From assembly GCA_013152715.1 (NCBI GenBank), contig JAADFU010000010.1, positions 1-37,837 on the forward strand: a DNA stretch of 37,837 nt, written 5' to 3'. The stretch is from Calditrichota bacterium. Lineage in GTDB: Bacteria > Zhuqueibacterota > Zhuqueibacteria > Thermofontimicrobiales > Thermofontimicrobiaceae. Both the position numbers and the translations under genes were made by a program. The notes beneath the pieces are model-generated. The model was not told the DNA's origin. It searched no databases and saw only the letters and a program-made list of their open reading frames with translations. Below, piece by piece: positions 10,420 through 23,289 of this stretch. How positions within the stretch are numbered: the stretch's first letter is position 1; each line of letters begins with the position of its first letter.

Positions 10420-10733
10420 TTGAAACTCTCCGTAATTTTAATAGTGAAATATATGCATGATTTCTTTAAATTTCAAGTAATTTCTTTATTATTTCCTGTC
10501 AAAAGTACCTGTCATTTTGACATAACGCCAATAATTTGCCAAAACGTCAGCCTTCTTCTCTCTGCTGAAATTTAGAACAACTCTTATAATCATCTGTATT
10601 CGCAGCACTTACAACTTTTGCGCTGCTTGTGGCACACAATTTGCCGAAACGCAGTTGATAAATTCTCAAGAAGGACTCAGAAAAAGACAGAATTTGAAAA
10701 TAGAATTTAAATTGAGAAGCAAAAGGATCACCC
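10420..10733. promoter_or_regulatory. Divergent intergenic region upstream of lon
   Basis: These 314 nt hold no convincing gene. A TATAAT at 10585-10590 with a poor -35 (TGCTGA, 16-nt spacer) may serve lon. A short inverted repeat, TGTCA-TTT-TGACA (10510-10522), could be a protein site. I see no CIRCE element or other known heat-shock operator. Confidence 0.35.
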
Positions 10734-13121
10734 ATGAGTGAATATAAAAAAGACTACACAGCTTCGATTCCGATGATTTTGCCGGTAATACCTTTGCGCA
10801 ACGAGGTGCTTTTTCCTCAGCAATTTTTGCCTGTCACTGTGGCACGGGAAAAATCTTTGAACTTGCTCAATGATTTGAGCGAGGAAAACAATATTATTGC
10901 CATCATCACACAAAAAGATTCTTCGAAAGATGATCCGACGCCGAAAGATTTGTACACCATCGGCACAGCGGCGAAAATCATGCGCAAAATAGATATGCCC
11001 GACGGCAGCAAGACAATTCTGATTCAGGGATTGCACCGCTTGAAAGTAATCACCTACACTCAGGAGCAGCCCTATTTCAAAGCGGTTTTTGATCCGATCC
11101 GCAACGAGGATCTGACTATTCACGAACCGGAACGCGTCGAGGCATTATCGGCTAATTTGCGCAATATTTTCAAACGCGTCGTGGATCTGTCTAGCGACAT
11201 CACTTACGAACAATTAGTGATGGTTTCCAACATCAAAGAACCGGGCATGTTGGCGGACATGGTCACCGCGTTTTCCAACTTACAGATTGAAGAAAAACAG
11301 GAAATTTTGAATACGTTCGACATTCAGGAACGTCTCAATAAAGCAAATATCATTATTAACAAGCTGTTACAAACGTTGGAATTGGGCGAAAAAATCCAGA
11401 CTGACATTCAAAACAAAATAGGCCAGACGCAGCGGGAAATGTATTTGCGCGAACAATTGAAAGCCATTAAACGCGAGTTGGGCGAAGACGTCGAAGGATC
11501 GGAACTCGATGAGTTGCACGATAAAATTGAGAAGGCGAAAATGCCCGAAGACGCGCGCCAGGTCGCGAAGAAAGAACTCAATCGCCTTTCGCAAATGCAC
11601 CCGGCGTCGGCGGAATACACGGTCGCGCGCACTTATCTCGACTGGCTGATCGACCTCCCCTGGAGTAAAACCACCAAAGATATTTTAGACATTGCCAGAG
11701 TGAAGAAAAAATTGGACGCCGATCATTACAATTTGGAGAAAGTCAAAAAGCGAATTCTTGAATATCTGGCGGTGCGCAAACTGAAAAACGACATGCGCGG
11801 ACCTATTCTTTGCTTTGTGGGACCTCCTGGTGTGGGAAAAACTTCGCTCGGGCGCTCCATCGCCGAAGCCATGGGAAGAAAATTCATTCGGATGTCTTTA
11901 GGCGGCATCAGAGATGAGGCGGAAATTCGCGGCCATCGCCGCACTTACATTGGCGCTTTGCCGGGACGCATCGTTCAGGGCATCAAAAAAGCCGGTTCCA
12001 ATAATCCGGTTTTCATGCTCGACGAAATTGATAAATTGGGTCACGATTTTCGCGGGGATCCCTCGTCCGCGTTGTTAGAAGTTTTGGATCCGGAGCAAAA
12101 TTTTTCCTTCAGCGATCACTATCTTGAGGTGGCGTTTGATCTGTCAAAAGTAATGTTTATTGCCACCGCGAACATGCTGGAACCGATTCCTGCGGCGTTG
12201 CGCGATCGCATGGAAGTCATAGAAATTCCCAGTTATGTGGAAGAAGACAAAGTACACATCGCGAAAAAATTTCTTGTGCCCAAACAAATCAAGGAGCACG
12301 GTTTAACTGAGAAAAACATTTCGTTCCGCAATGACGCCCTGCGGTCCATCATCAACGCTTACACCAGAGAAGCCGGCGTGCGAAATCTGGAACGAGAGAT
12401 CGCAGCGATTTGCCGCGGCGTTGCCAAAGATGTCGCCACGGCAAAAGATCAGTCAAAAATAAAAAAATCCATCATTACGCCGAAAAAAGTGGAGCAATAT
12501 CTGGGACCAATCCGGTTTTATTCCGAAGCAGCCGAACGTATCAATCAAACTGGTATTGCTGTCGGACTTGCCTGGACCATGGTGGGCGGAGACATTTTGT
12601 TCATTGAAGCTACTAAAATGCCGGGCAAAGGCAAACTCTCGCTCACCGGTCAATTGGGCGATGTGATGAAAGAATCGGCCCATGCAGCGCTGTCGTACAT
12701 TCGCGCAAATGCGGAAAAGCTGGGCATTGAAGGAGATTTTCACGAGAAATTTGATATTCACATTCACATCCCGGCGGGAGCCATCCCCAAAGACGGACCC
12801 TCGGCCGGAGTGACGCTCTTCACAGCGATGGTGTCATTGCTTTCGGACAGGAAAGTTCGCTCTGACGTCGCCATGACCGGTGAAATTACGCTGCGCGGAA
12901 ATATCCTCCCCGTCGGCGGCATCAAAGAAAAAGTCCTCGCTGCTCATCGCGCCGGCATAAAAACAGTGCTGCTCCCGAAAAAGAATGAAAAAGACTTGAT
13001 CGACATTCCCGAACATATCCGAAAAGAGATGCAGTTTCACTTTTTGACCGAGATGTCTGATATTTTGAAGCTGGCTTTTGATTTAAAAAAAATGAAAAAA
13101 ATTGAAGCGGCAAGTGAGTGA
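10734..13121 (+). CDS. lon: ATP-dependent Lon protease
   Basis: This 795-residue protein has the full LonA layout. The N-terminal substrate domain covers about 12-210 ([12 protein letters not shown]), and a coiled-coil region follows to about 310. The AAA+ module has Walker A GPPGVGKT at 363-370 and Walker B FMLDEIDK near 430. The C-terminal protease domain (about 600-790) has Ser690 in [10 protein letters not shown] and Lys733 in [11 protein letters not shown]; the 43-residue spacing of this pair matches E. coli Lon. It degrades misfolded and regulatory proteins in the cytoplasm. An AAAAGGA motif precedes the ATG. The gene stands alone and ends at a strong terminator. Confidence 0.98.
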
Positions 13122-13132
13122 TTTGAAGATAG

Positions 13133-13168
13133 AAAAGCCAGGTTTCTTAATGAAGAAATCTGGCTTTT
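13133..13168. terminator. Strong bidirectional terminator between lon and rlmD
   Basis: A 16-bp stem (13133-13148 with 13153-13168, one wobble pair) has a 4-nt AATG loop, with T-rich sequence on the right and A-rich sequence on the left. It overlaps the stop codon of the methyltransferase, so both convergent genes end here. Confidence 0.92.
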
Positions 13169-14586
13169 TATTTCGTCAAAATTGCCACAGTCTCCACATG
13201 CGCCGTGTGCGGGAACATATCCACCGGCTGCACTGACGTCAGGCGATATTCTTTGTCGCACAGAATTTTGAGATCTCGCGCCAACGTGGCCGGATTGCAG
13301 GAAACGTAGATGATCTTCCCTGGCGCCAGTTCAATAATTTTCTCCGAAACTTTCGCGTGCATGCCGGAACGAGGCGGGTCAATGATGATCACATCCGGTT
13401 TGCCGAAATTTTTTATTAATTCCGCCGTATTCAACACCTGATCTTTGATGTCTCCCAGCACAAATTCACAATTTTCGATTTGATTGCGCCTGGCGTTTTT
13501 GCGCGCATCGTGGACAGCGGCAGCGATGATTTCAAAGCCGACTACCTTTTTCACCTTATCGGCGATGAAAATGCCGATGCTGCCGGTGCCGGAATAGAGG
13601 TCGTACACAATTTCACTCCCCTGAAAATCGCCTCGTTCAACGACCAGTTGGTACAATCGCTCCGCCTGTCGGGAATTCGTCTGAAAAAATGAATTCGCTG
13701 AAATGCGAAATATTCTGTCTCCTAACTTTTCTTCGATAAATCCTTCGCCAAAAAGAACCCGCTCTTCATCGCCAAAAGCGATCTGCGCTTTTTTGCGACT
13801 AATATTATGCACCATGGTCGTGACAAAAGGAAATTCACGCTGAATTTGGCTCGCCATCTCGTCCACTGCCCCATGCCCTTCCGCGTCATCAGCAGTGATG
13901 ATGTTGACCATCATTTGCGATTTTTCCCGGGTCTCGCGAAAGACAAGAAAGCGCCAATAGCCGGTGTGTTTTTTTATGGTGTAAGGTTTTAAATTTGTGT
14001 TTTTGGCAAAGCTCCTGACGAAATTTAATAGCTCATTGCTCTGCCGGGACAATAAATGGCACTCATGAATATCCACGACCTTGTCAAAAACATTGGGCGC
14101 GTGCAATCCCAGCGCAAAATTTCGTTCAATTTCTTGTTCGCTGTCAATTTCCTCGCGCGACAGCCAGCGCAAGGGACTGAAGGAATATTCCATTTTGTTG
14201 CGATAGAAAAAAATCTCCGGCGATGGCAGCATGGGCATCATGGGCACACTAACGAAACCGCCCAAAAATTTGATCGTATCTTCGACCTGAGACTGTTTCT
14301 GTTGCAATTGGCTAGCGTAAGATAAATTTTGCAACAGACAGCCGCCGCACACGCCGAAGTAACGACACCGCGGCTCGATTTCAAAAGGCGAGCGTTCGAC
14401 AATTTCCACCACTCGGGCTTCGGCATAGCTCTTTTTCGAACGCACAATTTGCGCCCTGACTCGCTGCTGCGGCAAAACTCGCCGCACAAAAACAGTGTAA
14501 CCATCAACGTGAGCCACGCCCTTGCCGCCGAGCGCCAACGATTCTATTGTCAATTCAACTATTTCGTTTCTTTTAAATTTTGGCAT
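13168..14586 (-). CDS. rlmD: 23S rRNA uracil-5-methyltransferase, RlmD/RumA family
   Basis: This 472-residue protein begins with a TRAM RNA-binding domain (about 5-60). Next is a [4Fe-4S] cysteine set, CRYFGVCGGC, at about 78-87, with an earlier cysteine missing from view. The SAM-dependent methyltransferase domain has VYDLYSGTGSIGIF (about 325), DPPRSGMH (about 400) and the catalytic cysteine in YVSCNPATLARD (about 428). It transfers a methyl group to C5 of a uridine in RNA, most likely 23S rRNA. The exact position (U1939, U747 or both) cannot be read from sequence, so the symbol is family-level. AGGGA precedes the ATG. Confidence 0.92.
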   Translation of the reverse strand: MPKFKRNEIVELTIESLALGGKGVAHVDGYTVFVRRVLPQQRVRAQIVRSKKSYAEARVVEIVERSPFEIEPRCRYFGVCGGCLLQNLSYASQLQQKQSQVEDTIKFLGGFVSVPMMPMLPSPEIFFYRNKMEYSFSPLRWLSREEIDSEQEIERNFALGLHAPNVFDKVVDIHECHLLSRQSNELLNFVRSFAKNTNLKPYTIKKHTGYWRFLVFRETREKSQMMVNIITADDAEGHGAVDEMASQIQREFPFVTTMVHNISRKKAQIAFGDEERVLFGEGFIEEKLGDRIFRISANSFFQTNSRQAERLYQLVVERGDFQGSEIVYDLYSGTGSIGIFIADKVKKVVGFEIIAAAVHDARKNARRNQIENCEFVLGDIKDQVLNTAELIKNFGKPDVIIIDPPRSGMHAKVSEKIIELAPGKIIYVSCNPATLARDLKILCDKEYRLTSVQPVDMFPHTAHVETVAILTK

Positions 14587-14764
14587 GAAAAATCCCTGAG
14601 TTGGAGATATTGCGGCAAGATGTCAAAAAAACTGTCTCAAAATAGAACACTGTTGCAATCTGATACACTCAAAATTCTATTGTTTTTCCTTATTTCTTTT
14701 AATTTCAAGATGTTAAATAATGACAAGAATTATCATTTTATTTTTAATTGAGTTAACTAATTTT

Positions 14765-14792
14765 TTGCTGATTTTTTCGTTGGCATTATAAT
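14765..14792 (+). promoter_or_regulatory. Promoter of a candidate small RNA
   Basis: TTGCTG (14765-14770), a 16-nt spacer and a perfect TATAAT (14787-14792) predict a start near 14799. No open reading frame follows before the terminator at 14937. On the other strand the same AT-rich stretch also has a TATAAT-like box (14792-14787), which could serve the methyltransferase gene. Confidence 0.6.
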
Positions 14793-14798
14793 TGAATA

Positions 14799-14973
14799 TT
14801 AAAAAACAACAAACAAAAGCACTGCAACTTTGCACGGCATCTGTTTAGTAATCATTAATGGGAGGTTTACAAGCACAACAAACCAACCGAAACAGCGAAT
14901 TTGACCCGAATTCTTGCTGTTCCGCAATACGAGCATGGGCTCTTCGTTTCCCCACGGAGAGCTCTTTTTTTTT
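14799..14973 (+). ncRNA. Candidate structured small RNA of about 175 nt
   Basis: This plus-strand stretch lies between a sigma70-type promoter and a strong intrinsic terminator, with no plausible coding sequence. It contains an internal hairpin: AACAGC (14891-14896) pairs with GCTGTT (14916-14921), with an inner AATT/AATT pairing. Its size is near that of 6S RNA, but I cannot recognise 6S, SRP, tmRNA or RNase P landmarks. The 3' end runs antisense into the last codon and stop of the C25 peptidase gene. Confidence 0.5.
14937..14973 (+). terminator. Intrinsic terminator, plus strand
   Basis: GGGCTCTTCG (14937-14946) pairs with CGGAGAGCTC (14955-14964; two wobble pairs) around an 8-nt loop, followed by nine T (14965-14973). 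The T run lies on the plus strand only, so it does not terminate the minus-strand peptidase gene, whose stop codon it overlaps. Confidence 0.85.
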
Positions 14974-17900
14974 ATCGAGAAATTACCAGTTTCCCGATTT
15001 TTTCTGCTTTGATAGTTTTGTCTCCGTGAGGCGCCCGAGCGATTACTTTGTACAAATAGACGCCATTTGCCAATTCATCGCCATCGCGATCAAGACCATC
15101 CCAGTAAACTTGATTAATTGCCGCTTCCGCGACGATTCCTTCCAGCGTCTGAATCAGGGTGCCGCGCGTGGTGTAAATTTTTATTTTCACTTCGCACTGC
15201 TGACTGGCGTAAAACGTGAATGTTGTGGAAGATGAAAACGGGTTGGGATAATTGAACACATCCTGCAACACAAGCTCATCTTCAGAAACTACCTGAAAAG
15301 TCGCTGTCTTCACCGAAGAATTATTGAAATTATCCCACGCTTTCACAGTGATCGTGTGCGTTCCCAATGGCAAGCCGTATTCGGGGGTATCCGCACTCTG
15401 CGTCAGCGAAGCCGGCAATTTGTGAGTGGAAAAATCATAGAGCGCCTTGCCCGCCTGAAAATTATTTTCGTAATAATTGAAATAATCCGTAAGCACAATT
15501 TTTTCCGCCTCCAGATCGTCCAGCGTCATGGTAATGTTATGGCCGATATCGCCGACGATATTGATGCCGCTCACGCTGTCCGCCAATTCCACTTCCAGGA
15601 CAGAGTTTCTGGGAACGGTTTTGCCATCGGAAAATTGGGTTCCCTCAAAACTGATACGGATTTCGGGTCCTTGTTCGTCTTTCAGAAAAGAGGTCCCCCC
15701 TACCGGCACCGAGTCGCGGTAACCCACGCCTTGAATCTGCTGATCCGCAAAATAGATGCTGATGCGACCTAAATTGCCGCCGTAAGTAATGTCTTTGGGA
15801 ACAATGAATTCCGCTGCAAAGTGTCCGTTTTTTGCCGACACATTTCCCCGAAAAATTGTTTTCCCGGGCGAGTAGTAACGAATTTGTGAATTGCGCACAG
15901 TGTAGTAGATTTTGAATTGCTTGGAATCGTAAACCTTGAGCAGTGCCTTTCCTTGAAAATTTGAAAATGCATTCTCGCTTTTCCCCAGGTAGCCCTCGAC
16001 GCGAATTTTGCTCAAAGCTTTCAAAGTATCGGGCTGGATCTTCGTGAAATGTGCCGAATAACGAGGCGCTCGCAACCGCATCGTCGGATCGCCAAAAATA
16101 TGATATTTCTGATCGTTAGTCACACTGTAATTTGCCAATTTTGCCTTCATCAGCGCCACTGCGATGCGTTCGGTCGGTTGTTGGCCGTTGAAAAGATGCA
16201 CATAAAAAAGCCGGTTCAACGCTGTATTGAGATCAGCGTAAGCCAGCCGCGTGGAACTCAAAAAGCCGATTCCGCCGCGATCTTTTTCTGTAAACAATTC
16301 CTCGGAAAATGCCTGCTCCAACGGATCGTCAAATCTGCCAAAATCGCACGTGGCAGCAATCCAGAAAGGCAGTCGATGCTCATTTTGAATCAGTGCCAGA
16401 TCCCGGCTTTGTTTGAGCAATCGCTCGTGCGCCCAGAGAGTCGGATTGCCGTGACCGATGTAATTGACAATCAGCGTGCCCTTGTTCAGACAATCCAGCA
16501 GCGCTGCCGTCGCGGCTGGTTTCATGATGCCGGACGTTGAGGGATCGCGCTCGGCCGGATACTCAATCAAATAGATTTTTTGCTTCTCAAAAGAATCCGG
16601 CACAAGATTTTCAATGATATCTTCGGCATCTCTGGTGTGCTGGGTTTCATTATCCGTTTTGTTCGTTATTTCGTCGTCGCCGACCATAGTGACAACATTT
16701 CTCCAATCATCCAAAGCCAGTGCGCTCTGCGATTGAATTAAAGGTGAGTTTTCATAATCGATAATTTTCTGTACCACATTTCTTACTTCTTCCGCCGATT
16801 GAACCGGAAACCTGCCAATTGCCAGATCGATCGCGGCATCATTTCCGCTGACCATGACGTACCAGTCGTCAGTGGCGCGACTGGAATTTTCGTTCATTTC
16901 CGTAGTTTCAAACGGGGGAATCCAGTTTTTGTCGGTGCTGCCCTTCAAATTTTTATAATCATAATCGCCGTCGCCGCAAAGCAAAACGTATTTTGGCTGC
17001 GGATACCAGTTGTCAAACGCATATTTGATGAAATCGCGAATTGCCGTCGGGTCGGTGAGTCCCCAGGAAAATTCATTGTACACATCGGAAATTTTGACAA
17101 TCTGCGTGCTGACACTATCCATTTGCTCGCGCAACTCTTTGAGCGGCAAAATTTCATTGTAAAAATCGTCGTGTGTGATGATGAGGAAATCCGCGCCGTC
17201 GTTCAGCGAACGAATAACTCCCACATTCACTTTTTCCAGCGATGCCGGCGTGCGATACGCTTCCGGCGTCAGAGCAACATATTGCCGCAACAGCGTATCG
17301 GAAGAATCGTCCACAAAAGTCACTGTCCCGGAAGAAATTTCCGTTCCGGTCAATTCTGCAATTTCAAAGCGATCTGTCACGTCAAAAACATGAATATCAT
17401 TGCTGCTGAATCCGGTCACGCGGTATTTCTGCGCGCCGCTTGCGGACTGCATGAACCAGAGGTAACTATCTTCAGCTTCAAATTTCTTTTTGTAAAAAAG
17501 CTCGAACCAATCGAGATACATCTGGCTTTCGGCGTTATTGCCATTATATTGAATTTTAATACTGTTGTACCCGCTCTCTGAAAAATTGACCGTACCGGTT
17601 TTTTCAATGGTTTCAAAACGACTGCCCAGAAACTGATGCGTGGCAAAAAGCTGATCATTGACATAAATGGAAATGCGATGCGTAGAAGAGGTCAAACCAT
17701 AAAATCGTATGCGCATCACGAGATTATCTGCCGTATTTTCCGCAGCCGGGAGATAAGCGCTGTAATTTTGTGTTTGGTTGCCAGCCAGCAGTCTGCCAAA
17801 CCAATCAAGACCCGAATGAAGAAAATTATTAATTTCATCTTCCTCAAAATGACGTCCGTAAAAATCCAGATTGGCGATCACATTCGGGTCGGAACTGGCG

Positions 17901-19003
17901 CGCCGCGTCTGAATTCGTTTGCCGGTTTTTCCGTCGCCCCATTTGAGCCAATAGACATTTTTCGTCGTGTAATGATTAATGTAATGGCTGAAGAATTGAC
18001 TGGTATCGGATTCGCTGTCCCAATATTCGACAGGCACACCGTAAAAAATAAGATAGTCTTCGGAATCAAACTTGCCGTCGCCGCCGTCGGACACGTAGAT
18101 TGCATTTTCGATGAGACTGTCGGGTCTCGGCGTGCGAATGTCGCGCGGCAGCTCACGGCCTCCATTATTGTAAATGCGCAGCGTCGCCGGGACGATGGCG
18201 CTCAAATCCACGGCTTGCGCGGCGAGGTCGGCGCCGGAAATTTTGTAGAAACCTTCATTTTGCACTGTGATTTTGATGTATTCGCCGCCTTGCAGTACCG
18301 GCTTTTTCAGCGTGCGAAGTTGACTGTGCTGTTTCAACCATTTTTTCGACTGACTGAAATTAGCAATGACATCTTTGTAAAATTCTTCTTCATTTTTGTC
18401 GCGAATCGGCGCCACCGACGGCGTGACAGCCGTTCCGGAAAAGCTGACGCGAATTTGCAATTTTTTTAACAGACGAATGGTCCGGCGGGACGAATTGTAT
18501 TGGACAGGGAAAATTTCCACAGGCAGAATCCGCTGATTGCGAAAAAATGCCGGCTCCAGCGGATGAATGACCCGCGGAGATTCACTGCCGGAAACAGACT
18601 TTTCCGCGCTGAAATCCAACGTTCCGTCTTTTCTGACAAGCGGCGCCGGCACAATGGTTCCGGAAATTTCCTCAAATTCCGAAGCGATAATTTCGGCATG
18701 TGCGTCACCGGTCTGGGGAATTCCCACGGAAACCACGCGGCGCGGCAGCCAGGGATTGCCCGGCTCGCCAGTCAATAGCGCATTGCGATATTGAATTTTG
18801 AGAAATGATGCGCCGTTCACAGCAACCGTATCGATTCTCTCCAATTGTAACGCAATTTGCAGCAGCACGCTGTGATTGTCAGCCTGCAAAATTTGCACTT
18901 CAGACTTGGCAGCGAAAAGATGTGGCGCGATAATAATGACAAAAATAAAGATGAATATTGATCGAATGGAAAAAATAGGGAGTTTCTTTTCAGTTCCGAC
19001 CAT
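14972..19003 (-). CDS. Secreted C25 (gingipain-type) cysteine peptidase, PorU-like, with C-terminal sorting-type domain
   Basis: This 1343-residue protein has an N-terminal signal anchor (about 10-31) and a gingipain propeptide-like region up to about 210. Two beta-rich domains follow to about 600. The C25 peptidase domain (about 610-1000) has FLIITHDDFY, YVLLCGDGDYD, the catalytic histidine 851 (YIGHGNP) and cysteine 886 (AATCDFGRF). The 35-residue His-Cys spacing resembles that of gingipains. Ig-like regions come next. The last 100 residues (NYPNPFSSSTTFTF ... DGDELANGVYLYKV) are a FlgD-like / T9SS type A sorting domain. PorU, the T9SS sortase, has this architecture, but other secreted C25 peptidases do too. 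GGAG precedes the ATG. It lies 72 nt downstream of rseC. Confidence 0.9.
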   Translation of the reverse strand: MVGTEKKLPIFSIRSIFIFIFVIIIAPHLFAAKSEVQILQADNHSVLLQIALQLERIDTVAVNGASFLKIQYRNALLTGEPGNPWLPRRVVSVGIPQTGDAHAEIIASEFEEISGTIVPAPLVRKDGTLDFSAEKSVSGSESPRVIHPLEPAFFRNQRILPVEIFPVQYNSSRRTIRLLKKLQIRVSFSGTAVTPSVAPIRDKNEEEFYKDVIANFSQSKKWLKQHSQLRTLKKPVLQGGEYIKITVQNEGFYKISGADLAAQAVDLSAIVPATLRIYNNGGRELPRDIRTPRPDSLIENAIYVSDGGDGKFDSEDYLIFYGVPVEYWDSESDTSQFFSHYINHYTTKNVYWLKWGDGKTGKRIQTRRASSDPNVIANLDFYGRHFEEDEINNFLHSGLDWFGRLLAGNQTQNYSAYLPAAENTADNLVMRIRFYGLTSSTHRISIYVNDQLFATHQFLGSRFETIEKTGTVNFSESGYNSIKIQYNGNNAESQMYLDWFELFYKKKFEAEDSYLWFMQSASGAQKYRVTGFSSNDIHVFDVTDRFEIAELTGTEISSGTVTFVDDSSDTLLRQYVALTPEAYRTPASLEKVNVGVIRSLNDGADFLIITHDDFYNEILPLKELREQMDSVSTQIVKISDVYNEFSWGLTDPTAIRDFIKYAFDNWYPQPKYVLLCGDGDYDYKNLKGSTDKNWIPPFETTEMNENSSRATDDWYVMVSGNDAAIDLAIGRFPVQSAEEVRNVVQKIIDYENSPLIQSQSALALDDWRNVVTMVGDDEITNKTDNETQHTRDAEDIIENLVPDSFEKQKIYLIEYPAERDPSTSGIMKPAATAALLDCLNKGTLIVNYIGHGNPTLWAHERLLKQSRDLALIQNEHRLPFWIAATCDFGRFDDPLEQAFSEELFTEKDRGGIGFLSSTRLAYADLNTALNRLFYVHLFNGQQPTERIAVALMKAKLANYSVTNDQKYHIFGDPTMRLRAPRYSAHFTKIQPDTLKALSKIRVEGYLGKSENAFSNFQGKALLKVYDSKQFKIYYTVRNSQIRYYSPGKTIFRGNVSAKNGHFAAEFIVPKDITYGGNLGRISIYFADQQIQGVGYRDSVPVGGTSFLKDEQGPEIRISFEGTQFSDGKTVPRNSVLEVELADSVSGINIVGDIGHNITMTLDDLEAEKIVLTDYFNYYENNFQAGKALYDFSTHKLPASLTQSADTPEYGLPLGTHTITVKAWDNFNNSSVKTATFQVVSEDELVLQDVFNYPNPFSSSTTFTFYASQQCEVKIKIYTTRGTLIQTLEGIVAEAAINQVYWDGLDRDGDELANGVYLYKVIARAPHGDKTIKAEKIGKLVISR

Positions 19004-20584: not shown

Positions 20585-20611
20585 TACCAACTCCGCTAAA
20601 TCTCGTTGGTA
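20585..20611. repeat. Inverted repeat in the rpoD leader
   Basis: TACCAAC (20585-20591) and GTTGGTA (20605-20611) are perfect inverted arms, 13 nt apart, 51-77 nt upstream of the rpoD start within the 223-nt rpsU-rpoD gap. A second weaker stem (TGGATG/CATCCA) lies near 20650-20670. They may be RNA structures or processing sites. Confidence 0.45.
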
Positions 20612-20757
20612 AATCAGTTTGTATTTCAACAATTTTAAGGAAATAAAGTGGATGGAATATGAGGCATCCATTAAAATTGGCGTTTCACGAACAGCGACCA
20701 TTTTGTTATTTCACATACCCCAATTCAATTGTAATCATCTCAATGAACCAAATTGAA

Positions 20758-20961
20758 TCATTCAACGGTTCCATACTTTTCCATAATTCGGTGCTGACGT
20801 CGAACTGCTTTGCCGTGTTTCAAGCGTTTTTTCTGGCTGGGTTTCAGGAAGTAACTATTTTTTCGATAATCGCGTATAATACCAGCCCGCTGGCATTTTT
20901 TTTTAAATCTGAGGATTGCTCGATCAATTGATTCATTTTCCCCGACAAAGACGGTGATCAT
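20758..20961 (-). CDS. rpsU: 30S ribosomal protein bS21
   Basis: This 67-residue, highly basic protein has the bS21 pattern: ENESIDRAILRFKKKCQRAGI, then KPSQKKRLKHGKAVRR. It binds the 30S subunit near the anti-Shine-Dalgarno region. The start is supported by an AAAGGATG element upstream of the ATG. It is followed by rpoD on the same strand, as in the rpsU-dnaG-rpoD operon of many bacteria, with dnaG missing here. Confidence 0.95.
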   Translation of the reverse strand: MITVFVGENESIDRAILRFKKKCQRAGIIRDYRKNSYFLKPSQKKRLKHGKAVRRQHRIMEKYGTVE

Positions 20962-21498
20962 AGACCATCACATCCTTTCTCTCCTTATTTAAAGAAGCGT
21001 TTAATATGAAAAAAAGTTTGATTATATACTCAATCAATGAAGTAAAGTTCCAAATAAATCAAGGAAATACAAAAAGAATCTTTGTCTTCAGGGAAGATAT
21101 CTTTTGTTGCATCCTCAGTTTTCTCGCCGCTTTGCTTAAAATTTAGAATTTCACCTCTTTAGTTCTGGTTCGTGACAACAGAAACTTGAATTTACCTGAT
21201 GAATCTTTGCTCTTAAACTTTGGATGATTAATTGTCCGTTTGGTTTCGATAAAATTGCAAAAATCACTATTTATTCCAGATATTTATCAAAAAATGATGA
21301 CAATTATCAGCAAATCAATTGAGTTTCTGTCTTGGGAGAAGATACACCAAAATTATGCGCCGAATTCTTTGAAATGGGAGCGGAGCTTTTTTCGAGTGAA
21401 TCCGACAAATAACGCTCAAAAAAGCAAAACAAATCATTCGCTTGCAGTTTTTAATATAGCAAAATAAAAGTGCCTTGTCAAGCAATAGTTGAAAAAAT
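20962..21498. other. AT-rich intergenic region upstream of rpsU
   Basis: No gene is convincing in these 537 nt. A plus-strand frame of 75 codons (21240-21467) has no ribosome site and a poor composition. A 40-codon minus-strand frame starting at 21437 follows the strong promoter at 21453 but also lacks a ribosome site. TTGATT (21018-21023) and AATCAA (21032-21037) form an inverted repeat around a minus-strand TATAAT (21026-21021), a possible regulated rpsU promoter with a poor -35. Confidence 0.5.
21453..21481 (-). promoter_or_regulatory. Strong sigma70-type promoter pointing toward rpsU
   Basis: On the minus strand TTGACA (21481-21476), a 17-nt spacer and TATATT (21458-21453) make a near-consensus promoter. 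The next gene, rpsU, starts about 485 nt downstream. It lies in the gap just past the histidine kinase stop codon. Confidence 0.7.
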
Positions 21499-23289
21499 TC
21501 AATTTTTAGTTAAGAAATTTTTTATTGGCAAAAATATCGAAAAAACAGCGCCTCCGCCCTCTTCGCTTTCCGCTTCGATGCGACCGTTATGCTCCTCGAC
21601 AATTTGCTGAGCGATGGAGAGCCCCAAACCTGTTCCGCCTTCTTTCGTGGAATAATAAAAATCAAAAATGAACGGTAAATCTTCCGCTTTAATTCCTTTT
21701 CCCGTATCTCGAAAACGAATCACTGCACACTGCGGCTGGTCGCTATCTGCCTTTTTCTTCAAAAGTCCCAACTCTATTGTCAAATTTCCTCCGCCGGGCA
21801 TCGCCTGAAGCGCGTTCAGAAAAATATTGAGAAAAACTTGCCGCATTTTTCCTTCATCAAGCAAAACAGTCATTTCGTCCACGGCGTAGCGGCGGCTAAC
21901 GCGAACGCCTGCCTGTCGCGCTTCGGCTTGCTGCGAAACTATCAAATCATCCAATATTTTTCTCATATTTACCGGATTGCGCTCCAATTTTGGCGGACGA
22001 GCCACCAGCAGAAAATTATTCACCAAATTGTCCACGCGTTGAATTTCCGCCGCGACGATCTCCAGATAGTGGCGTAGTTTGGCCAATCGCGGCGCTGACC
22101 GCTTCATTTCCCGTTCCATGATCTGCATGTTGATGACCATGGCATTCAGCGGATTTTTTATTTCATGCGATAGCACTGAAGCCAATTTATTAAGCGTTTC
22201 GGCGCGTTCGCTGCGCTTCAGTTTCTGTTGAAATTCGATCAATCGGGACGCCATTTCATTGAATCGCTCCGCCAACATCGAAATCTCATCCCGGCCCAGC
22301 AACGGAATTCGATAGCGCAAGTCCCCGCGTTCAAACTGTTCAATCCCGGAGATTAATTGATTCACCGGCGTGACAATCCAACGCGTGTAAATCGCCGCGA
22401 TGACCGACGACAACGCGACAAAAATCGCCACAAACAGTAAAATTTGTTTTTTCATTTTATCCGCAAGAGCAAAAGCAACATCTTTTCTCTGTTGAAAAAC
22501 AACACCCCAACCGTACTTGGGCAAACCAATGAAAGCAGCGACCATTTTAACGCCATCCTTGTTGGCATAGATGCTTTGCCCCATAGAATCCAACGCCACT
22601 TTTTGCAACACGTCTCCTTCTTCAAATTTTTCTCCCAAATAGACCCGTTTCCGTTCCGAGTGGGCGATGAACCTGCCGTTGCGGTCAAAAATGAACGCCT
22701 GGGCTTGCGATCCGGAGACGCTGCTCTCTATCAGATCCCACATCTCTTTCAAATTAACATCAGCGATAAGCGCGCCGCTGAATTCATTGTAGCGAAAAAT
22801 CGGCTCCGCCAACCTCATCGCCGGCAATCGATCTTCCTGCAAGAATACATCGGAGCGGTAACTATTGCCTGATTTTAACAACCGCAGAAAAGAAGCATTC
22901 ACAAATTGCGACGAGTCCACCAAAAAAGACGTCGACAAAATAATCTTTCCCGTGGAATCGATCAGCTTCAAATCACGAAAAATGGGGAACTCGTTGTAAA
23001 TCTCATTGATTATCAATTCCTGCGTCAATTTATTTGTAGAAATATTTGACAAATTAGACGCATTAAATCGCAACGCCTGGACGGCGTGATCGAGCGTCAT
23101 GGTGATCTCCATGGCGGAATGCTTGACTAACTCCATGGTGCGAACACGGTAAGATTGTTGAAGCGCGCGGTTCGCCGTACCGATGAGCACAAAACCTACC
23201 AGGATTACCGGAACGGAAGCCATCAAAATGTGCGAGATCAACAGTTTGGTGATAAAGCGGTACTTTATGTCAATTTCGTTCTTTTTCAT
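21499..23289 (-). CDS. Membrane sensor histidine kinase with periplasmic Cache domain
   Basis: The 596-residue protein has a membrane helix at about 14-36 and a periplasmic double-Cache-type sensor at about 37-280 (FPIFRDLKLIDSTGKIIL; AFIFDRNGRFIAHS). A second helix follows at about 284-304, then a HAMP domain to about 360. The HisKA dimerisation helix carries the phospho-accepting His375 (LSHEIKNPLNAM). The HATPase domain has N-box FLNIFLNALQAM, G1 FRDTGKGI and G2 GGTGLGLSIAQQIVEEHNG. It would phosphorylate a response regulator, but none is encoded nearby. It lies 82 nt downstream of a solute-binding protein gene on the same strand, a likely co-transcribed partner. Confidence 0.94.
   Translation of the reverse strand: MKKNEIDIKYRFITKLLISHILMASVPVILVGFVLIGTANRALQQSYRVRTMELVKHSAMEITMTLDHAVQALRFNASNLSNISTNKLTQELIINEIYNEFPIFRDLKLIDSTGKIILSTSFLVDSSQFVNASFLRLLKSGNSYRSDVFLQEDRLPAMRLAEPIFRYNEFSGALIADVNLKEMWDLIESSVSGSQAQAFIFDRNGRFIAHSERKRVYLGEKFEEGDVLQKVALDSMGQSIYANKDGVKMVAAFIGLPKYGWGVVFQQRKDVAFALADKMKKQILLFVAIFVALSSVIAAIYTRWIVTPVNQLISGIEQFERGDLRYRIPLLGRDEISMLAERFNEMASRLIEFQQKLKRSERAETLNKLASVLSHEIKNPLNAMVINMQIMEREMKRSAPRLAKLRHYLEIVAAEIQRVDNLVNNFLLVARPPKLERNPVNMRKILDDLIVSQQAEARQAGVRVSRRYAVDEMTVLLDEGKMRQVFLNIFLNALQAMPGGGNLTIELGLLKKKADSDQPQCAVIRFRDTGKGIKAEDLPFIFDFYYSTKEGGTGLGLSIAQQIVEEHNGRIEAESEEGGGAVFSIFLPIKNFLTKN

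Follow-up and report, generated by a model that had tools for sequence, protein, structure and literature searches.

Does the interval between rlmD and a C25 peptidase gene, both of which are encoded on the minus strand, harbour an RNA gene of its own on the opposite strand and, if so, how would that gene be switched on and what would its product do? The interval lies in a 37,837-nucleotide stretch of DNA (the window), which is contig C10 of a draft genome (G000) of 4.15 Mb that is 97.9% complete and was treated here as a member of the KSB1 group, since public MAGs that bear the label candidate division KSB1 are among its relatives. An initial annotation had placed an unannotated small RNA here, and comparison with other genomes bears this out: the interval and its hairpins are kept in close relatives, and a homologous non-coding gene occupies the same rlmD/C25-peptidase interval in seven genomes (five from one family and two from a second, all within a single order), with terminator arms that covary. 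Judged from these comparisons, the locus looks like a real, previously undescribed gene for a small, non-coding regulatory RNA in an uncultured KSB1-group bacterium (Table 1).

Table 1. Coordinates of the predicted small RNA gene, its control elements and its neighbours in the window
Feature	Position	Strand	Remarks
rlmD	13168-14586	minus	name from our own reading and the initial annotation
Tandem palindrome	14633-14667		TGTCTCAAAATAGAACA (14633-14649) and TGTTGCAATCTGATACA (14651-14667), 18-bp pitch
Predicted sigma-54 -24/-12 promoter	14781-14796	+	TGGCATTATAATTGAA; GG at 14782-14783, TTG at 14792-14794
Predicted small RNA	14807-14973	+	167 nt; start placed 12 nt after the -12 position; 7 homologs
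5' hairpin	14809-14849	+	modest support (z -1.9 for the 5' domain of the window)
Core hairpin	14891-14921	+	AACAGC-GAATTTGACCCGAATTCTT-GCTGTT; inner segment ATTTGACCCGAAT
Unpaired conserved linker	14922-14932	+	CCGCAATACGA; near-invariant in 6 homologs, CCGC retained in G009
Intrinsic terminator	14937-14973	+	11-bp stem and nine T
C25 peptidase gene	14972-19003	minus	name from our own reading and the initial annotation

The distribution of the gene is narrow. A DNA search of 99 relatives recovered the region in four genomes of the same family (G003, G004, G005 and G006) and in one further member of the order (G011); a sixth, weak match in G027 reflected AT-rich similarity only, with the core missing. 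When a covariance model built from these homologs and the window was run over 63 genomes of the class, the one further credible locus was that of G009 (E 1e-7); the weak matches in G030, G026, G007 and G001 either lack the core or lie inside genes. Scanning 84,980 genomes for the exact pattern yielded 14 matches, of which only four, all KSB1-type, had the flanking core. The remainder look like chance, and the core hairpin together with its flanks was absent from unrelated genomes in that scan. The order rlmD, small RNA, C25 peptidase is maintained in all seven genomes with orientations unchanged. G001, from the same genus, falls outside this comparison as its contig stops at the rlmD start, while in a third family (G008 and G010) the rlmD and peptidase genes are present, are not adjacent and the core is missing; full-length rlmD was not found in G002 or G007. 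Since all seven members are related, their conservation is partly a matter of shared ancestry. Elsewhere in the window, about 0.9 kb (20600-21498) separates an rpoD-like gene from a sensor-kinase gene (21499-23289), with no convincing open reading frame and no Rfam match in that stretch.

What is conserved within the gene is most readily seen in its 3' half. The internal AACAGC/GCTGTT stem noted in the initial annotation is real and recurs in the relatives; the inner segment ATTTGACCCGAAT is identical in all seven loci and the outer stem almost identical, G009 having the variant TCAGC..GCTGT around the same segment. Past the core hairpin comes the unpaired CCGCAATA, of which C(C/T)GC is present in all seven, and then the terminator, whose sequence diverges. 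The strong plus-strand terminator described earlier stands, with a stem (14937-14964) of 11 pairs, six of them G-C, followed by nine T, and among 13 terminator-like sites found over 6 kb none ranks higher. Its arms covary across the homologs, with two-sided changes at 7 of the 11 pairs, and the pairing of the arms is also evident on direct inspection (GGGCTCT/AGAGCTC, GGGTTCT/AGAACCC and GGACCCTC/GAGGGTCC). For the two helices together, two-sided changes occur in 15 cells vs 5.6 in shuffles, a count that none of 500 shuffles reached, and the share of cells that pair is 96.9% vs 34-49% with slid partners. These counts lean toward pairing, as the alignment was fitted to the structure of the model. 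The interval 14799-14973 folds better than shuffled sequence (z -2.96, with 1 of 200 shuffles as good); folding energy favours the plus strand in four of the seven loci, which is not decisive as a test of strand. The 5' domain is less uniform. A hairpin precedes the core in four of the five members of the family of the window, the sequences being mutually unrelated, and is absent from G009 and G011; z values for this domain range from -2.2 to -3.6 in G003, G004 and G006, and the value is +0.8 in G005. In G009 and G011 the predicted RNA instead starts with GAAACCCGA, which repeats the ACCCGA of the hairpin loop, and G005 has an additional ACCCGA upstream. Repetition of this seed motif would suit pairing at multiple sites.

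The position of the gene raises the possibility that it acts only where it lies, as a cis-acting antisense RNA or an insulator that controls read-through from the peptidase gene into rlmD and has no distant targets. The unvarying gene order fits such a role, as does the fact that any transcript reading through from the peptidase gene would run antisense to the entire RNA. However, antisense pairing at its own locus would not require the inner hairpin segment to remain identical while the flanks diverge, and the conservation of gene order is not confined to these two genes, since lon, the rpoD-like gene and the sensor kinase of the wider neighbourhood are also kept in G005. Nor is the overlap with the peptidase gene constant. 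It had been described as antisense to the last codons; the overlap is real and reaches the stop codon only (14972-14974), and it is not conserved, since in G004 about 100 nt separate the end of the terminator from the peptidase gene. Taken together, a purely local role is unlikely, though it fares better than the other alternatives considered below.

How transcription would be initiated is a question on which the comparison departs from the earlier reading, which had assigned a sigma-70 promoter. Both of its elements exist (TTGCTG at 14765-14770 and TATAAT at 14787-14792) but neither is conserved in the relatives, and TTGCTG has only three of six consensus positions, a consensus scan having made no call. 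What is conserved is an element that had been missed, the putative sigma-54 -24/-12 sequence GGCATTATAATTGA. The pattern GGCAT-N5-TTG, at the exact sigma-54 spacing (GG-N10-GC), is found in all seven loci, the boxes of the six relatives being TGGCATTAAATTTGTA, CGGCATTGATTTTGTA, TGGCATTAGTTTTGTT, TGGCATATGATTTGTT, AGGCATCATATTTGCT and CGGCATTCAATTTGCA. When upstream regions are shuffled, about 3% of them contain a comparable box, so that its presence at all seven loci goes well beyond chance, also when relatedness is allowed for. The final base of the -12 element is C in G009 and G011, T in G003-G006 and A in the window, and it counts against this assignment that TTGA (in the window) and TTGT (in four other family members) fall short of the ideal TTGC. 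The distance from box to core is some 60-80 nt shorter in G009 and G011. The genome itself encodes sigma-54 (rpoN; PF04552, E 7.4e-62). Counted from the predicted sigma-54 start the RNA would be 167 nt long, close to the approximately 175 nt first proposed.

Further upstream is a second element that had escaped notice. The palindrome TGTYTYA-N3-TRARACA occurs twice at an exact 18-bp pitch in all seven loci, some 115-160 bp upstream of the -24 box. There are one or two mismatches among the 20 fixed positions (four in G003), and in 300 shuffles per region the observed value was never reached in six loci and was reached once in G003. The arrangement is typical of binding sites for bacterial enhancer-binding proteins (bEBPs), and is likely to represent an upstream activator site. 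Across 12 genomes of the order the tandem motif, with up to three mismatches, was found at 32 sites vs 8 for a reversed control. A genome-wide search with the single palindrome was not above control, and the activator-site claim consequently rests on the tandem form. Of the 22 tandem sites that could be read away from this locus, 11 have a strict TGGYR-N6-TTGC box within 250 bp, where about 0.4 would be expected from a background of 0.017 strict sigma-54 boxes per 500 nt.

These observations bear on a second alternative, in which the RNA is transcribed by the housekeeping sigma factor from TATAAT, the GGCAT..TTG match is a coincidence and the palindromes are an operator for rlmD. It is true that TATAAT is a perfect -10 box, that only 47 nt separate the palindromes from the start of rlmD in the window, and that in G004, G005 and G011 they abut the probable start of this gene or overlap with it. 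Against this, it is GGCAT and TTG, rather than TATAAT or TTGCTG, that all seven loci share; in G009 and G011, where the sigma-54 box lies at a different distance from the RNA core, the palindrome has moved along with it; and elsewhere the tandem sits near strict sigma-54 boxes. This combination of coincidence and operator is accordingly improbable, more so than a role confined to the locus.

The genes that follow the tandem site elsewhere in the order point to the programme with which the putatively sigma-54-dependent RNA might be coordinated. A STAS gene follows it in G005, G010 and G011 and, in G005 and G011, heads an operon of Poly_export/SLBB, chain-length-determinant, sugar-transferase and asparagine-synthase-like genes (names of exopolysaccharide (EPS) genes without a Pfam call are from our own reading of the sequences). 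GDSL hydrolases follow the site in G004 and G006, and a secreted protein of no known family in G005 and G006. The genome of the window has a sole other tandem site at the same threshold (C58:3982-4093); a TGGTATGAAAATTGCA box follows after 76 bp, and then a gene for a Ser/Thr kinase that lies beside an FHA-like gene. Inspection by motif revealed no convincing bEBP in those EPS-operon neighbourhoods that were read. As an observation in its own right, STAS-headed EPS operons with the tandem site and a textbook sigma-54 promoter (G005:C8 at 153.5 kb, G011:C74 and G010:C118) would make up a predicted sigma-54 EPS regulon in KSB1. Separately, the region upstream of lon (window 10500-10734; L185 5200-5760) contains a strong sigma-54-like box (TGGCACACAATTTGC at 10630 in the window, TGGCATGTAATTTGCG in G005). 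Each box has a TGTCA-N2-4-TGACA palindrome ahead of it (CTGTCATTTTGACA and CTGTCAATTTGACA, respectively), and the two regions have ATAATCATCTGTATTC in common. Possibly a second, different sigma-54 activator system drives lon.

With respect to the product, the earlier view that the interval contains no credible open reading frame is confirmed, as the most conserved block differs by 1-nt indels between relatives, which excludes a shared reading frame. A short mRNA for a small protein is thus very improbable: GGAGG-like stretches do precede the core in five of the seven members, but they are followed by neither a start codon nor a shared frame, the 1-nt length differences shift every frame, and there is no gene downstream on the plus strand. 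It had also been stated that the RNA matched none of 6S, SRP, tmRNA and RNase P by eye, in agreement with which an Rfam search of the window gave no match at the gathering score and, at a loose threshold, chance-level matches only. 6S RNA (RF00013), which is of similar length, was rejected, as the locus itself has no match and the 6S RNA of the genome was found elsewhere (G000:C167, 51.7 bits, above the cut-off).

If the RNA acts on other transcripts, it would do so without Hfq, no PF17209 match having been found in the 97.9%-complete genome. A search for targets by loop complement, using a single seed, gave no enrichment and no conserved target. The best hint within the genome is a 14-nt perfect complement of GAATTTGACCCGAA (G000:C174:335-348), 35 nt upstream of a 393-aa lipoprotein-like open reading frame, which is not shared by relatives. 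Complements of the loop are found elsewhere 149 nt before ftsZ (G006) and 74 nt before the gene for a 164-aa secreted protein (G009). As the complements precede different genes and lie mostly inside open reading frames, the lipoprotein-like frame is not claimed as a target.

Collectively, comparison lends good support to the predicted gene, its strand, terminator and conserved core, and to its putative promoter and activator motif, from which we infer that the gene is transcribed. The likely explanation is a stand-alone regulatory RNA that is induced by a bEBP and sigma-54 and controlled together with surface-polysaccharide genes. An enhancer-binding protein would bind both palindromes (14633-14667) and activate sigma-54 RNA polymerase at the -24/-12 box (14781-14796), leading to synthesis of a 167-nt RNA (14807-14973) that ends at the intrinsic terminator. 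The RNA would present UUUGACCCGAA on its invariant core hairpin and expose the linker CCGCAAUACGA, with a variable 5' hairpin in most members of the family. As the tandem site and sigma-54 box also stand before EPS, STAS, kinase and secreted-protein genes, it is probably made together with the surface/EPS programme. Its conserved C-rich segments would then base pair with mRNAs to tune them in trans, a mechanism that we judge somewhat more likely than not.

An arrangement of this type has been described in Vibrio fischeri, where the bEBP SypG acts with sigma-54 to activate both the syp polysaccharide locus and the small RNA Qrr1, the latter being activated by the bEBPs LuxO and SypG (PMC10162802). 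The SypG site is TTCTCANNNTGMDWN, and at Qrr1 there are two responsive regions between -175 and -60 (PMC10162802), while the syp locus includes the STAS protein SypA (PMC4517449). The likeness is extensive. Both RNAs are intergenic and have a sigma-54 promoter (a predicted one in KSB1) with two upstream activator sites; the SypG site shares its core with the KSB1 sequence (TG)TCTCA-N3-TGAGA(CA); and a STAS gene follows the tandem site in three genomes, as the syp locus includes one for SypA. However, the RNAs themselves have no apparent sequence relation: Qrr is among the Rfam families and the RNA described here has no Rfam match. Moreover, Vibrio Qrr RNAs act with Hfq, which is absent from the genome of the KSB1-group bacterium, a member of a different phylum. 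By analogy, then, the locus closely resembles the SypG/sigma-54/Qrr1 arrangement without belonging to it. A similar parallel can be drawn with the RpoN-dependent PEP-CTERM/EPS genes that go with PrsK-PrsR (PMC9850573); there too a sigma-54 -24/-12 promoter with a predicted upstream enhancer precedes EPS/floc-associated genes, but that system includes no small RNA. Tentatively, a Qrr-like circuit may be envisaged in an uncultured phylum, in which one bEBP and sigma-54 drive both the EPS/partner-switching genes and a new family of Hfq-independent small RNAs, whether as a parallel to SypG-Qrr1 or as a remote relative of it, and with a similar activator site.

To our knowledge no regulatory small RNA has been described in KSB1-group bacteria, and a literature search on KSB1 small RNAs gave nothing relevant; the RNA is a new family of a known kind. 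Since promoter, activator site, candidate co-regulated genes and terminator can all be read from the sequence, it can be tested where transcription starts and whether the EPS/surface programme is the condition under which the RNA is expressed. If the circuit operates as envisaged, the invariant UUUGACCCGAA loop would re-tune mRNAs for the sessile state. The finding suggests that coupling of a sigma-54-dependent small RNA to polysaccharide control, known from Vibrio, may exist far outside the Proteobacteria.
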